Part shown: piece after piece, positions 47,018 through 53,589 of the stretch
How positions within the stretch are numbered: position 1 is the first letter of the stretch
Layout: every line of letters begins with the position of its first letter
From: Bacteroidota bacterium
Lineage (GTDB): Bacteria > Bacteroidota > Ignavibacteria > UBA10030 > UBA6906
DNA: 64,000 bases
Assembly (NCBI GenBank): GCA_030835135.1
Contig: JAUQWO010000075.1
Location: forward strand, 213,330 to 277,329
Direction: 5' to 3'
Made by a program: the position numbers and the translations under genes
Notes under the pieces: model-generated
Told to the model about the DNA's origin: nothing
What the model saw: only the letters and a program-made list of their open reading frames with translations
Database searches by the model: none

Positions 47018-47079
47018 CGATCTTTTCCTAAGAGATTCCCCTGTGTTCCTGCAACTTCTGGCTCCTCGCCCCCGTACAC

Positions 47080-47183
47080 TGACTTGTAGTCATTCCTTGT
47101 ATTAACGATAATTAATTGTTGTAAAGTATTGCTTCTCTGAAACATTGGTGATATATTATCGTTAAGATAATGACTGACAGTCA
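47080..47183. repeat. 104-base AT-rich element with imperfect terminal inverted repeats
   Basis: The left end (47080-47112) has TGACTTGTAGTCATT and TTAACGATAAT; the right end (47155-47183), read on the opposite strand, has TGACTGTCAGTCATT and TTAACGATAAT. Each end holds a 5-3-5 palindrome (TGACT-N3-AGTCA) at its tip. The centre contains the promoter of the tetR operon. This could be a pair of TetR operators or a small MITE-like insertion. Confidence 0.7.
47129..47159 (+). promoter_or_regulatory. Promoter of the tetR-tolC-MFP-RND operon
   Basis: TTG (47129-47131), 20 bases, TATATTAT (47152-47159); also readable as TTGCTT-N17-TATATT. It lies between the two TGACT-N3-AGTCA palindromes, so a bound repressor could cover the start region. 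Confidence 0.6.
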
Positions 47184-47202: not shown

Positions 47203-47910
47203 ATGGGAATCCAGGAACGAAAAGAGCGGGAGAAGGAAGCGCGGCGCGAAGAGATCCTCGACGCGGCGTACAAGGTGTTCGTGGCTAAAGGTCTGGCCGG
47301 GGCAACGGTGGACGACATTGCCGCCGCTGCCGAATTGAGCAAAGGGACCATCTACCTGTATTTTCGGAGCAAGGAAGATCTCTACCTGGCGGTGACCAAC
47401 CGCGGGCTGGATATCATGCTGGGCATCTTCGAAGCAACGGCGGCGCAGGGGGGCGATCCCATCCGGCAGATCTGGAACCTCAGCGATGCCTACAACAGCT
47501 TCTATGAAGAACACCGGGAGTATTTCCGCATGCTGGCGTTCTTCGAAAATCCGGAGATGCATGATACGGTCTCCGAAGAGATGCTGGCCGAATGTCAGAC
47601 CCACGATGCGAAGGTCTGGGGCTTCGTGTCGGGCGTGATGAAGAACGCGATCGATGCGGGCTACCTCCACGCCGGACTCAATCCCCTCGAGGTCGGCATG
47701 ATGCTCTGGTCGAATTCTACAGGACTGCTGCGGCAGCTCGACCGGAACGAGGAGTACTGGCACGCGCGCATGGGGATCGATCTCCGGAAAACGCTGCGCA
47801 TGTCCAATTCCTTCCTGCTGGAAGCGATGATGACCGACAAAGCGATGCAACTGTATCACGACCAGTTGATCCATCACTGGCCGACACGTTCACAGGAGAA
47901 GAAGTCATGA
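47203..47910 (+). CDS. TetR/AcrR family transcriptional regulator
   Basis: A 235-residue regulator with an N-terminal helix-turn-helix (RREEILDAAYKVFVAKG, TVDDIAAAAELSKGTIYLYF, residues about 15-60) and a variable ligand-binding helical domain. It is the first gene of an efflux operon: the tolC-like gene overlaps its stop codon (ATGA). Such a location predicts repression of the pump and release by a pump substrate. The paired TGACT-N3-AGTCA palindromes flanking the promoter are likely operators. Confidence 0.93.
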   Translation: MGIQERKEREKEARREEILDAAYKVFVAKGLAGATVDDIAAAAELSKGTIYLYFRSKEDLYLAVTNRGLDIMLGIFEATAAQGGDPIRQIWNLSDAYNSFYEEHREYFRMLAFFENPEMHDTVSEEMLAECQTHDAKVWGFVSGVMKNAIDAGYLHAGLNPLEVGMMLWSNSTGLLRQLDRNEEYWHARMGIDLRKTLRMSNSFLLEAMMTDKAMQLYHDQLIHHWPTRSQEKKS

Positions 47911-49280
47911 AGACGGTGGTCACAGGGCTCGTCCTGGCCCTCACGATAACGGCGGCGGCCGCACAGGAGCGCCTGACCATGGACGCTGCCGTGCAGACGG
48001 CGCTGCAACGCAATCAGACATTGCAGGGCGCACAGTACGACCGCGATGCGGCGAAATGGGGACGGCTCAATGCCATCACCAACTTCCTCCCGAAGGTCGA
48101 ACTCTCCGGGGGCGTCACACGCATCGACCCGGCGTCCGAACGCCGCGCGAACGCGGCCGTGGATTTCATCAAGCTCGCTGCCGGGTCGTTCGGGATCCCG
48201 CAGGAGATGCTTTCCGAGATCAAGCCGTTCGCCTACCGCGATACGTACGCCGCGGACATCACCGTGGTGCAGCCCGTGTACAACGGTGGCGCGGAGTTCG
48301 TCGGACTCTCGGCGGCCAACGCCCAGGAAGACCGCTCCATCGCGATGTTGCGCGATACCGAGCAGGACGTCGTCGCGAGGGTCCGCACCGCGTATCTGGG
48401 CGTGCTCAAGGCGGAAGAGCTGACCGGACTCGCGCGCGAGTCGGTGGCCCGCACGCAGCGCCACCTCGACCTCACCAGGCGCCGCGCCGCAGTGGGCATG
48501 CGCACTTCGACGGACGTCCTCCGCTGGCAGGTCCAGCTCGCTTCCGATGAGGGCACGCTCATTCAGGCGGAGAACGGCCTTGCCGCGGCACGGCTCCTCT
48601 TGAACGACGCGATGGGTGTCGATCTGCAGGCCGTATTCCAGCTCGACCGCGGTGCAGCCGGCGATACATCCCGGATCGCATCCACGCTGTCCACCGTGGC
48701 CGCCGAACCGCCGATCACGTCCGACATGCTCTCGTTGCACCCCTCGATGCTCGGGATGGACGCGGGGCTCCGTCTGGCCGACGCGGGGATCAGTGCGGCG
48801 TGGATCAACTTCCAGCCACGGGTGAACGTCGCATTCCAGTATGGATGGGAGAAGAACAATACGCTGAAGCTCGATGGCATCCGTCCGTGGGCACTCGCGC
48901 TGCAGGTGAAATTCCCGATCTTCAACAGCTTCGGCGACTACACGAACCTGCAGAAGGCACATGCCGAGTATGCCCGCACGGAGAGCCAGGTGGAGAATGG
49001 CCGGCGCGGGCTGGTGATGCAGGCGACGTTCGCCCGCATGAATCTCCGCGCCGCGGCCAAACGCGTGGAGATCACCCGCACCGGTGAGCAGGAGGCCAGG
49101 GACGTGCTGGATGCGATCACGCGCCGGTATGACACCGGCGGCGCGTCCAATGTGGACCTCATCGATGTGCAGACGGCCTACACCCTGGCCAGGACCAATG
49201 CCATCACCGCACTCTTTGATTATCACATCGCCAGCGTCGGACTTGCCCGGGCGATGGGCACCATCAGCATACAGAACTGA
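47907..49280 (+). CDS. TolC family outer membrane efflux channel
   Basis: A 457-residue outer membrane factor with a signal peptide (MKTVVTGLVLALTITAAAA) and two TolC-like repeats of helices and strands, with LTMDAAVQTALQRNQTLQGA and the second-half TARTESQVENGRRGL-like helices. The ATG at 47907 overlaps the tetR stop and is preceded by AGGAGAAG. It forms the outer membrane exit duct of the tripartite pump encoded here. Confidence 0.9.
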   Translation: MKTVVTGLVLALTITAAAAQERLTMDAAVQTALQRNQTLQGAQYDRDAAKWGRLNAITNFLPKVELSGGVTRIDPASERRANAAVDFIKLAAGSFGIPQEMLSEIKPFAYRDTYAADITVVQPVYNGGAEFVGLSAANAQEDRSIAMLRDTEQDVVARVRTAYLGVLKAEELTGLARESVARTQRHLDLTRRRAAVGMRTSTDVLRWQVQLASDEGTLIQAENGLAAARLLLNDAMGVDLQAVFQLDRGAAGDTSRIASTLSTVAAEPPITSDMLSLHPSMLGMDAGLRLADAGISAAWINFQPRVNVAFQYGWEKNNTLKLDGIRPWALALQVKFPIFNSFGDYTNLQKAHAEYARTESQVENGRRGLVMQATFARMNLRAAAKRVEITRTGEQEARDVLDAITRRYDTGGASNVDLIDVQTAYTLARTNAITALFDYHIASVGLARAMGTISIQN

Positions 49281-49294
49281 ATCCGGACAGACCC

Positions 49295-50422
49295 ATGGAA
49301 ACGACAATGACACCCCCGAAGAATCGGTCCCGAATCCTGTTGATCGCCGCCGCAGCATTGCTTGTGGTGGTCGCGATCGTCGTCATCAGTACCCGCCCCT
49401 CCCAGGCGGACGCAGCAAAGGATCAGTTGATCCGCGCGGCGGCGGTGGAAGTGACACCGGCCGCACGCGGTGACGTGGAGGATGCCGTGAGCGCCGTCGG
49501 CTCGGTGGAAGCGAACCGCGATGTGATGGTGAGCTCCGAGACTGCCGGACGGGTCACCGCCGTGCTCGTGGAGGTCGGTGCGTCCGTGAAGAAAGGACAG
49601 ACCCTTGTGCAGGTGGACGCCGAACTGAAGGAAGTTGCCGTGCAGCAGGCACGTGCAGGACTTCTGGCAGCGAAGACGAATATGGAGAAGGCCAAGAAGG
49701 ACTTCGAGCGTACCGAGAAACTCTACGCATCCGGCGATGTCGCCGATGTGGAGCTCGAAGGGTACCGCCTCGCCTACCATGCGGCGGAAGCCGGATATCA
49801 GTCGGCGGTTGCCGGCACGCGTCTCGCCGAACGTCAGCTGGCGGATACGCGCATCGCGTCGCCCATCGCCGGGCAGGTCGCATCCCGCCTGGTGGAACTG
49901 GGGGAAATGGTGGGACCGGGGAGGGAAGTGGCGAACGTGATCGACATCAGCACGATGAAGGTCCGCCTGAGCATCCCCGAAGAAGAGGTGCGGAAACTGC
50001 ACGCAGGTCAGACTGCCGAGCTGCGCGTGGATTCCCATCCCGGCGTGGTGTACCGCGGCACGGTGCATACGGTAGGGGCAAAATCAGAATCGCCGCAGGG
50101 ACATACCTATCCTGTTGAGGTGCTGGTACAGAATACGCCCGGAACGCTCCTGCGTGCGGGGATGTTCGCCCGGGTGGCCATCCGCACGAACGCGGTGAAG
50201 AATGTCATCGTCGTCGACCGGAATTCCCTGGTCGAGTTGGATGGCCGCACGGCGGTCTTCGTTGCGAAGGATGGCGTGGCGCACCTGCGCCCCGTGACGC
50301 TCGGCCTGAACGGCGCATCGCATGCGCAGGTCGTGAGCGGTCTGACGGAAGGCGAGCTCGTCGTGAGTTTCGGCCACAAGGCGCTGAAGGACGGCGCTCC
50401 GGTAGCGTACAAAGGACAGTGA
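49295..50422 (+). CDS. RND efflux periplasmic adaptor (MFP) subunit
   Basis: A 375-residue membrane-fusion protein with an N-terminal anchor helix (about residues 14-32, no lipobox), a lipoyl/beta-barrel domain (SSETAGRVTAVLVEVGASVKKGQ), a helical hairpin (about residues 105-165), the second lipoyl half (RIASPIAGQVASRLVELGE) and a C-terminal beta domain. The gene lies 14 bases after tolC and 20 before the pump gene. It links the RND permease to the TolC channel. Confidence 0.93.
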   Translation: METTMTPPKNRSRILLIAAAALLVVVAIVVISTRPSQADAAKDQLIRAAAVEVTPAARGDVEDAVSAVGSVEANRDVMVSSETAGRVTAVLVEVGASVKKGQTLVQVDAELKEVAVQQARAGLLAAKTNMEKAKKDFERTEKLYASGDVADVELEGYRLAYHAAEAGYQSAVAGTRLAERQLADTRIASPIAGQVASRLVELGEMVGPGREVANVIDISTMKVRLSIPEEEVRKLHAGQTAELRVDSHPGVVYRGTVHTVGAKSESPQGHTYPVEVLVQNTPGTLLRAGMFARVAIRTNAVKNVIVVDRNSLVELDGRTAVFVAKDGVAHLRPVTLGLNGASHAQVVSGLTEGELVVSFGHKALKDGAPVAYKGQ

Positions 50423-50442: not shown

Positions 50443-53400
50443 ATGAAACTCACAGAGATCGCCATACGCCGACCGGCGTTCATCACGATGGTCTTCGTCA
50501 CACTCGCCGTCCTGGGCCTCTTCGGCTACTCGCGCATGGGTGTCGACCTGCTGCCGAAGATGGACTGGCCCTTCATCTCGATCGTTACGGTCTACCCCGG
50601 CGCCGGCCCCAAAGAAGTGGAATCGCTCGTCTCCAAACCTCTCGAAGAGGCCGTGAGCGGGCTGAACAAACTGGATAACGTCCGCTCGTATTCCTATGAA
50701 GGAGTATCGGTCGTCCTTGCGCAGTTCACCTTCAGCGCCGATGTGGACGTGGTCACCAACGATGTGCAGCGGGCGGTGGAGCAGGCACGGTTCAAACTGC
50801 CGGACGAGGTGAAGGCGCCACTCATTTCGAAATCTGACATGAACGCGTTCCCGATCCTCCGGGTGTCGCTCACCGGCCAGATGCCACCGCGGGAACTCTA
50901 TCAGTTCCTGAAGGACCGGCTGAAGCCGCGGTTGGAGCAGGTGGATGGTGTCTCGGCCATCACCATCATCGGCGGGCAGGAACGCGAGATCCGGGTCGAG
51001 CTCGATAACCAGAAGCTGAACGCCTACGGGATCTCGATCCTGCAGGTGTCGCAGGCGCTGGCCCGCGAGAACCTCGACTTCCCGACGGGGAAAGTGGATG
51101 AGGACCTGAATCAGTACATCGTGCGCCTTGCCGGCAAGTTCAAGTCGCTGGATGAGATCCGCGCGGTCGTCATCGCCGGTGGGCCGAAGGGGGTCGTCTA
51201 CCTCCGGGACATCGCCACGGTGGTCGACGGCTCGCGGGAGACCTTCACCATCAGCCGCCTCAACGGCGAGACCTCGATCGCACTCGCGATCCAGAAGCAG
51301 TCGGATGCCAACTCCGTGAAGACCAGCGACCGGCTGCAGGCCACGTTCCGCGAACTGGAGCAGGAGAACGGCGGACGCATACAGTTCACCGTGGCGCAGG
51401 ACCTGACCGATTTCACACGCAATTCGCTGTCCGAGGTGCAGCGCGATCTGTTCCTGGCGATCCTGATGGTGGCCATCGTGCTGTTCCTGTTCCTGCACAG
51501 CGCGCGGAACTCGCTGATCGTCCTGCTGTCGATCCCGACGTCGCTCATCACCACCTTCTTCTTCATGTGGATGTTCGACTATACGCTGAATCTCATCTCG
51601 CTGATGGCCCTGGCGCTGGTGATCGGTATCCTGGTGGACGACTCCATCGTGGTGCTCGAGAACATCCACCGCCATCTCGAGAAGGGCGAAGACCCGAAGG
51701 AGGCGGCCGTGAACGGCCGCAGCGAGATCGGCTTCGCGGCCATCGCCATCACGCTCGTGGACGTGGTGGTGTTCCTCCCGATCTCGCTGGTCGGGGGCGT
51801 CGTGGGCCGCATCTTCAGCGAATTCGGTATCACGATCGTCGTTTCCACGCTGCTGTCACTGTTCGTATCGTTCACGCTCACGCCCATGCTCGCGTCGAAG
51901 TGGTCGCGCCTCATCGAGCACACCCGCGCAACACGGACCGGCCGTTTCATCCTCTGGTTCGAGGGATTGCAGGACCGGCTGGCGGAGCGGTACAGCGATC
52001 TTCTTGGCTGGTCGTTGGACCACCGCAAGACCATCCTTGCGGTCAGCGGCGGGGTGCTGGTGGCGAGTCTGGCGCTCGTGCCCGCGGGGTTCATCGGTTC
52101 GGAATTCATGACGGATTCCGACCGGGGTGAGTTCGCGATCAACATCGACCTGCCGTTGGGAACGACCATCGGTAAAACGGATTCCACCGTGCACGCGGTG
52201 GAGCGGATCGTCGCCGCCATGCCCGAGGTGCAGCGGTATCTTTCCACCACCGGCAAGCAGCAGAGCCAGTGGAAGAATGCCGAGCAGTCCAACCTCGGCC
52301 AGGTGCAGGTGAAGCTCACCGAAATGCGGACACGGAAGCGGTCCACGAAGGCGGTCATGCTCGCGATCCAGGAGCAAACCGCAACGGTTCCCGGCCTGAC
52401 GACCAGTTTCGCGACGATCAGCATGTGGGGTGCAGCGAATGAAGCCCCCTTCCAGATCGAGATCATCGGGTCCGACCTGGCAGAGGTGGTGAAGTATGCC
52501 GGAACGGTCTCGGAGATCATGTCCAGGGCGAAAGGGACCGTGGACGTGAGAACCTCGTGGGAGGAGGGGAAGCCGGAACTCAAGATCGAGGTGGACCGCG
52601 ACAAGTGCGCACGGATGGGCTTGACGCTGGCGGAGGTCGGTCTCGCGGTGCGGACGGCCATCGAGGGCGACATCGCCACGAAGTACCAGGATGGCGACAC
52701 CGAGTACGATCTGCGGGTCGTGCTGAACCGCGACGACCGTTCGCGGACCGCGGACATCGGCGCGCTCACGCTGATCAACCACTCCGGGCAACCGGTGAGG
52801 CTCGCGCAGATCGCCACCATCTATCACGGCAAGGGTCCGTCCGAGATCCAGCGGAAGGACCGGGAGCGCCTCGTGACCGTGGCAACGAACCTCTCGGGCG
52901 AGGTGCCCCTCGGGCAGGTTGCCGAGGCCGTGGAGAAGGAGATCAACGCGGTGGGGATCCCCGCCGGCGTGCAGGTGTTCTATGGGGGCGATACCGAGAA
53001 CATGCGCGACATGTTCAGCGACATGACCATCGCGCTCAGCATGGCCATCCTGTTCGTGTACATCATCATGGTGAGCCTGTTCGAATCGTACATCCACCCG
53101 TTCACGATCATGTTCTCCCTGCCCGTGGCGCTCGTGGGTGCCCTGGCAGGTCTCGCGATCACGGGGATGACGCTGAACATGTTCAGCATGATCGGGATCA
53201 TCATGCTCATGGGTCTGGTGACCAAGAACGCCATCCTGCTCGTCGACTTCACCAACACGCTGCGCGAGCGGGGTCTTGCCATGCGGGAGGCGCTGCAGGA
53301 GGCGGGCAAGACCCGGTTGCGCCCGATCGTCATGACCACCGCCACCATGATCTTCGGCATGATGCCGCTGGCACTTGCCCTCGGTGCCGGCTCAGAGATG

Positions 53401-53589
53401 CGACAGGGTATGGCGGTCGTTGTGGTCGCCGGTCTGTTCAGCTCCACGCTGCTTACGTTGGTGCTCGTTCCTGTGGTGTACAGCTATGTGGACGGGTTGC
53501 GGGAACGGGTACCGGTCCTGTTCAAGAAGGTGTCCTGGGCCGGTTGGTTCCCATGGAAGCGCGGCTCCGCCGGCGTGGCCGCACATTGA
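50443..53589 (+). CDS. RND family efflux permease (HAE1 type)
   Basis: A 1048-residue inner membrane pump with twelve transmembrane helices and two large periplasmic loops. The start MKLTEIAIRRPAFITMVF, the TM4 aspartate pair in ALVIGILVDDSIVVLENI and the second-half FVYIIMVSLFESYIHPF and GLVTKNAILLVDF segments identify a proton-driven HAE1-type exporter. The TM10 charged lysine is in VTKNAILLVD. Substrates are not predictable. A hairpin at 53615 closes the operon. Confidence 0.95.
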   Translation: MKLTEIAIRRPAFITMVFVTLAVLGLFGYSRMGVDLLPKMDWPFISIVTVYPGAGPKEVESLVSKPLEEAVSGLNKLDNVRSYSYEGVSVVLAQFTFSADVDVVTNDVQRAVEQARFKLPDEVKAPLISKSDMNAFPILRVSLTGQMPPRELYQFLKDRLKPRLEQVDGVSAITIIGGQEREIRVELDNQKLNAYGISILQVSQALARENLDFPTGKVDEDLNQYIVRLAGKFKSLDEIRAVVIAGGPKGVVYLRDIATVVDGSRETFTISRLNGETSIALAIQKQSDANSVKTSDRLQATFRELEQENGGRIQFTVAQDLTDFTRNSLSEVQRDLFLAILMVAIVLFLFLHSARNSLIVLLSIPTSLITTFFFMWMFDYTLNLISLMALALVIGILVDDSIVVLENIHRHLEKGEDPKEAAVNGRSEIGFAAIAITLVDVVVFLPISLVGGVVGRIFSEFGITIVVSTLLSLFVSFTLTPMLASKWSRLIEHTRATRTGRFILWFEGLQDRLAERYSDLLGWSLDHRKTILAVSGGVLVASLALVPAGFIGSEFMTDSDRGEFAINIDLPLGTTIGKTDSTVHAVERIVAAMPEVQRYLSTTGKQQSQWKNAEQSNLGQVQVKLTEMRTRKRSTKAVMLAIQEQTATVPGLTTSFATISMWGAANEAPFQIEIIGSDLAEVVKYAGTVSEIMSRAKGTVDVRTSWEEGKPELKIEVDRDKCARMGLTLAEVGLAVRTAIEGDIATKYQDGDTEYDLRVVLNRDDRSRTADIGALTLINHSGQPVRLAQIATIYHGKGPSEIQRKDRERLVTVATNLSGEVPLGQVAEAVEKEINAVGIPAGVQVFYGGDTENMRDMFSDMTIALSMAILFVYIIMVSLFESYIHPFTIMFSLPVALVGALAGLAITGMTLNMFSMIGIIMLMGLVTKNAILLVDFTNTLRERGLAMREALQEAGKTRLRPIVMTTATMIFGMMPLALALGAGSEMRQGMAVVVVAGLFSSTLLTLVLVPVVYSYVDGLRERVPVLFKKVSWAGWFPWKRGSAGVAAH

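Follow-up and report, generated by a model that had tools for sequence, protein, structure and literature searches.

TetR-family repressors are dimeric as a rule, with one DNA-binding face, and in systems of the AcrR, MtrR, SmeT and TtgR type the regulatory gene adjoins an RND efflux pump and a palindromic operator lies at the promoter. In the E. coli lac operon the primary operator, O1, is located at +11, just past the start site, and O3 is located 92 bp upstream, a spacing that is optimal for looping (PMC1762422). In Neisseria, the MarR-family repressor NadR/FarR acts in an IHF-dependent manner at distant operators on the promoter of the FarAB efflux pump; looping has been proposed, and no second promoter per operator is described there (PMC2791445).

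The locus reported here lies within a 64,000-nucleotide stretch of DNA that we analysed as a whole (the window), and has something in common with each of these. A 104 bp control region of 30% GC (47080-47183) precedes a tetR-tolC-mfp-rnd operon (Table 1) and contains two palindromes, O2 and O1, positioned 91 bp apart from start to start, much as in lac, although the regulator is a TetR protein, with no known tetramer, rather than LacI, and the distal operator is predicted to have a promoter of its own. As with the AcrR/MtrR/SmeT/TtgR-type repressors the regulatory gene adjoins an RND pump, but here the operon begins with tetR, and two separate putative operators are found at two putative promoters. 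The resemblance to NadR/FarR is that of a repressor at distant operators on an efflux promoter, with the differences lying in the MarR family of that protein, its dependence on IHF and the promoter predicted here at each operator. The tetR product matches Pfam TetR_N with 63.9 bits (cut-off 24) and is predicted as a monomer with a regular TetR fold (pLDDT 91), for which the nearest PDB entries are FadR, SmeT, FasR and RutR-like; the AcrR and MtrR models score it far under their curated cut-offs. The ATG of the tolC-like gene overlaps the tetR stop codon (ATGA).

Table 1. Features of the control region and the efflux operon (window coordinates)
Feature	Coordinates	Strand	Remarks
P2, ECF-sigma-like promoter	47050..47076	+	TGCAAC (47050-47055)-N17-CGTA (47073-47076); predicted sigma class
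O2, distal TetR operator (predicted)	47080..47092	.	TGACTTGTAGTCA; overlaps predicted P2 start
AT-rich block, O2 to P1 -35	47102..47118	+	UP-element-like position; function inferred
P1, sigma70-type promoter	47129..47157	+	TTGCTT-N17-TATATT; by comparison with two-operator loci
ECF-like remnant over P1	47138..47163	+	TGAAAC (47138-47143)-N16-CGTT (47160-47163)
O1, proximal TetR operator (predicted)	47171..47183	.	TGACTGACAGTCA; 19 bp after -10 start
tetR, TetR-family regulator	47203..47910	+	235 aa, N-terminus MGIQERKEREK
tolC-like outer-membrane efflux protein	47907..49280	+	PF02321
RND periplasmic adaptor (MFP)	49295..50422	+	TIGR01730, 234.6 bits vs 94.9
RND efflux permease	50443..53589	+	PF00873, 910.8 bits

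We favour the interpretation, at a probability of roughly 60%, that the element controls a self-regulated efflux operon and consists of two tandem promoter-operator units, an ECF-like P2-O2 and a sigma70-type P1-O1. Sequence comparison yields the operators and the distance between them, and likewise the two promoter motifs and their partition between the units, whereas we infer TetR binding, the sigma factor of P2, induction and the order of events. What is new here is the set of twelve two-operator loci and, on the best reading of the comparisons, the ECF-like promoter at O2, such that O2 would not be a mere auxiliary site.

The first-pass annotation had depicted the region as a symmetric element, and several of its components are as it described: two TGACT-N3-AGTCA palindromes (O2 and O1), two copies of the 11-base TTAACGATAAT at 47102-47112 (+) and 47155-47165 (-), and a TTG-N20-TATATTAT promoter, which corresponds to P1 with hexamers at 47129-47134 and 47152-47157. 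The imperfect inverted repeat of about 30 bases at each end is present in sequence but is not a single repeat, as there are two separate dyad centres, one for the operators (47131.5) and another for the 11-base match (47133.5), and O2 and O1 pair with each other because each is itself palindromic. In a post hoc test the 11-base repeat arose in 2 of 3000 shuffles of the 78 bp core. It is present in none of nine other 91-bp loci, where the longest perfect inverted repeat is 6-7 bases, and was therefore rejected as a conserved element, being specific to this genome. One of its arms lies in the AT-rich block, which is moderately conserved within the clade. The boundaries originally drawn enclose both operators and P1, but leave the upstream promoter (47050-47076) outside. 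No terminator was found between the upstream gene and P2, and the transcript fold of the control region is not unusual (z -1.3).

Exact TGACTNNNAGTCA sites occur three times in the 4.9 Mb genome, at O2, at O1, and 34 bp upstream of a paralogous tetR gene. A reversed control pattern also has three matches, so that the count alone is not above control, and it is the placement of the sites rather than their number that constitutes evidence, because all three are directly upstream of two paralogous tetR genes. The genome encodes six TetR_N genes, and TGACTNNNAGTCA is located upstream of these two and is missing at the other four. Homologous tetR genes of this order, and others in MAGs of KSB1 and Cloacimonadota, are preceded by the TGACYNNNRGTCA palindrome, as a rule 30-60 bp from the start codon, and almost all of the close homologues examined keep it upstream. 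In 12/12 two-operator loci and in many single-operator loci the palindrome begins exactly 19 bp after the start of a -10-like hexamer. The assignment of O1 and O2 as predicted operators of this TetR clade is thus well supported by comparison.

Of 49 loci in which a proximal site was recognised, 37 have a single operator and 12, belonging to two families, have both, the spacing being exactly 91 bp in ten, 90 bp in one and 81 bp in one. In the same set L091 has a weak further second site at 62 bp, and L140 has a near-match at 41 bp that lies over the -35 of that locus. The distal sites of L100 and L138 were considered as second operators and rejected, each being a sole operator with a long leader. 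When 98 whole genomes of the order were scanned for operator pairs spaced 76-106 bp from start to start, seven pairs were recovered; each has a spacing of exactly 91 bp and each precedes a homologue of the window tetR. The same genomes contain none at 45-75 bp or 107-137 bp. In 395 genomes sampled across the phylum there are two more pairs, at 94 and 99 bp; because these too are at tetR/tolC loci, the possession of several putative operators is a recurrent trait of this regulator group. When 47 TetR proteins were placed in a maximum-likelihood tree, the two-operator loci formed one supported clade (98/99), which also takes in L091 and two f2g19 loci, and the tandem arrangement therefore most likely has a single origin. 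The segment from O2 to the P1 -35 is a constant 36 bp in ten loci with a mean pairwise identity of 0.47 (0.32 when shuffled). The earlier proposal that TetR binds both palindromes is well supported by comparison, through the conservation among homologues, the ten loci at exactly 91 bp, and the location of all three genome sites at the tetR pair; the looping across the promoter that it included is only possible, and the promoter belonging to the distal palindrome had been missed.

A sigma70-type promoter is found before O1 in 12/12 two-operator loci and before O2 in none of them. In most relatives P1 has the form TTGACA-N17-TATATT, and a sigma70 promoter scan missed P1 in the window owing to its weak -35. 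ECF-sigma promoters have AAC within the -35 element and CGT within the -10 element, the B. subtilis sigma-W promoter being TGAAAC-N16-CGTA, and the predicted promoter P2 resembles promoters of this type in motif and in spacing. Eleven of the 12 loci, the window included, have the motif TGNAAC or CGNAAC-N16/17-CGTA before O2, at -28 to -31 from it, compared with a shuffled expectation of 0.003 loci, a very large excess to be read in the light of the motif having been defined post hoc on inspecting the same loci, which are related and not independent draws. Before O1 it is present in one of the 12 (L089), and the window has the near-match TGAAAC-N16-CGTT. L089 is also the locus in which the spacing is 81 bp, O2 lacks a P2, and a divergent gene adjoins. 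At L091 a P2-O2 unit is readable (GGTAAC-N16-CGTA before CGACCCATAGTCA) despite the 62 bp operator spacing, indicating that P2 and O2 move together. We ascribe P2 to the ECF type because of the tetR promoters compared here together with general knowledge of ECF promoters.

With ECF type defined as AAC in the -35, CGT in the -10 and a 16-17 bp gap, 14/37 single-operator loci qualify, compared with 11/12 two-operator loci, and both promoter types are often superimposed at the one operator, as in L101, where TTGACT-N17-TATACT overlaps TGTAAC-N16-CGTA. In five others (L098, L102, L103, L105 and L144) the ECF-like motif is kept and the sigma70 -10 has decayed. In motif-free alignments the region before O2 resembles single-operator promoters (z 10.1), as does the region before O1 (z 8.2), and the two do not resemble each other (z -0.3), although the likeness of P1 may be due to the generic sigma70 pattern alone. 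Because each region is similar to single-operator promoters and not to the other, the comparison points to a divided ancestral promoter. Derivation of O2 from P1-O1 by a still-visible duplication was rejected, as there is no residual similarity between the units.

If the two-unit interpretation is correct, the same TetR would occupy both palindromes and block P2 and P1 at their start sites, and ligand would release TetR and open both promoters. Expression from P1 would then be by the housekeeping polymerase, and from P2 by a stress-type polymerase when the stress sigma is active, with an operon that has two polymerase inputs staying under one repressor. The tandem form would have had a single origin, one unit having been either duplicated or added, and the ECF-type elements would then have stayed in P2 and the sigma70-type in P1, the work of an ancestral hybrid promoter being split between the two units; cooperative O2-O1 bridging would be an optional addition. 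If true, this locus family would show overlapping promoters splitting into two dedicated ones under one repressor, and the window, L089 and L091 would be apparent intermediates among the descendants. The comparisons also provide a motif for the operators of this TetR clade, which is located at RND pump operons of Ignavibacteria and of related phyla, together with a spacing that can be tested.

A different explanation, which we think doubtful yet worth serious attention, is that O2 is an auxiliary operator and that two TetR dimers (or a tetramer) bridge O2 and O1 to trap P1 in a 91-bp loop as in lac, with the motif before O2 irrelevant or secondary. The invariant 91 bp spacing in ten loci is consistent with this, as the leader between O1 and ATG has no fixed length in these loci, at 19-25 (14 in L089), and so is the one clear deviation, the 81 bp of L089, approximately one helical turn shorter, where O2 has no promoter. 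The positions are also close to those of lac, with O1 at about +14 and O2 91 bp upstream compared with +11 and 92 bp, the looping optimum (PMC1762422), and a perfect O2 accompanied by a degenerate O1 in f5g25 is as expected of a helper site. Set against these, fixed spacing across a clade can be inherited, 91 bp amounts to 8.67 turns at 10.5 bp/turn, and L091 breaks the spacing yet keeps its P2-O2 unit. A TetR-family dimer normally presents a single DNA-binding face, neither the TetR alignment nor the monomer model shows an evident tetramerisation surface, and looping leaves the promoter motif before O2 without an explanation. A combined scheme, in which duplication-degeneration-complementation acted at the promoter level on an ancestor read by two sigma classes and the 91 bp are held by TetR dimers bridging O2 and O1 in a lac-like loop, we would regard as unlikely. 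The locus would offer a clean system for asking whether TetR-family repressors loop DNA, and a literature search returned nothing direct on TetR looping or on the P2 motif.

The TGNAAC and CGTA blocks could alternatively bind another regulator, making this a two-regulator control site with no second promoter. What speaks for such a site, and also against the ECF assignment of P2, is that the motif is not clearly enriched genome-wide: TG[AC]AAC-N16/17-CGTA has 12 matches in 1.65 Mb of the genome compared with 2-11 at other spacings, an apparent enrichment in the first 0.85 Mb (9 vs 1-2) having been discarded when a further 0.8 Mb did not confirm it. We nonetheless consider it quite improbable, as the motif is non-palindromic, its 16-17 bp gap and near-fixed operator offset are those of a promoter, and the five single-operator loci with a decayed sigma70 -10 keep it. 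The genome carries many sigma70 region-4 genes, and in genome stretches for which the gene calls are crude, the ECF genes show no pattern of the motif in their own promoters, the sole plausible case being that of L157 (TGAAAC-N17-CGTC at -40). The composite TGCAACTT-N15-CGTA / TGNAACTT-N15-CGTA has one other exact copy in the genome (L206:16288, G000:C51), 115 nt before a tricorn-protease-like gene and with the 14-mer TGTTCCTGCAACTT in common with the window.

It is more improbable still that O2 serves a divergent upstream gene or an antisense transcript and not the tetR operon. A divergent GxxExxY-like gene does start about 80 bp beyond O2 in L089, and L148, a region of another family with two sites, likewise has a divergent gene, but the upstream gene is co-directional in most of the readable two-operator loci (the window, L085, L086, L087, L088, L090, L099 and L126), for which reason a role of O2 at a divergent gene was rejected, and the P2 motif faces tetR. 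Finally, delivery of promoter and operators by a MITE-like insertion, as the first-pass annotation had suggested from an AT-rich block with imperfect inverted ends in a GC-rich genome, is barely credible and was rejected, as a genome search returned no second copy of the 104-base element, its conserved parts are two operators and promoters rather than terminal repeats, and its position before tetR is unchanged in the two congeners and in further genera; in L085 it follows what appears to be the counterpart of the window's upstream gene.

Several related loci differ in the number or type of their sites. The paralogous tetR of this genome (L116, G000:C49:21636-21648) is on another contig; its one operator lies 34 bp ahead of it, and a TolC-like gene follows. 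This constitutes a further pump locus, and because the operator motif is common to both loci the two TetRs may cross-regulate. Four Bacteroidota TetR homologues (L013, L014, L016 and L018) have TGAAC-type palindromes (e.g. TGAACACTGTTCA) at the same position, which are putative operators of a related, shifted specificity. L149 (G328:C9), from another family of the phylum, has sites at 678, 1436, 1501 and 1600, one operator being before tetR and three, spaced 65 and 99 bp, before a separate tolC-like gene. In genus g11 (L094, L097 and L099) the 91-bp two-operator module is located on a pump whose TolC is about 25% identical to that of the window, compared with 52-73% for the remaining two-operator loci, and the regulatory module thus appears to have changed pumps.
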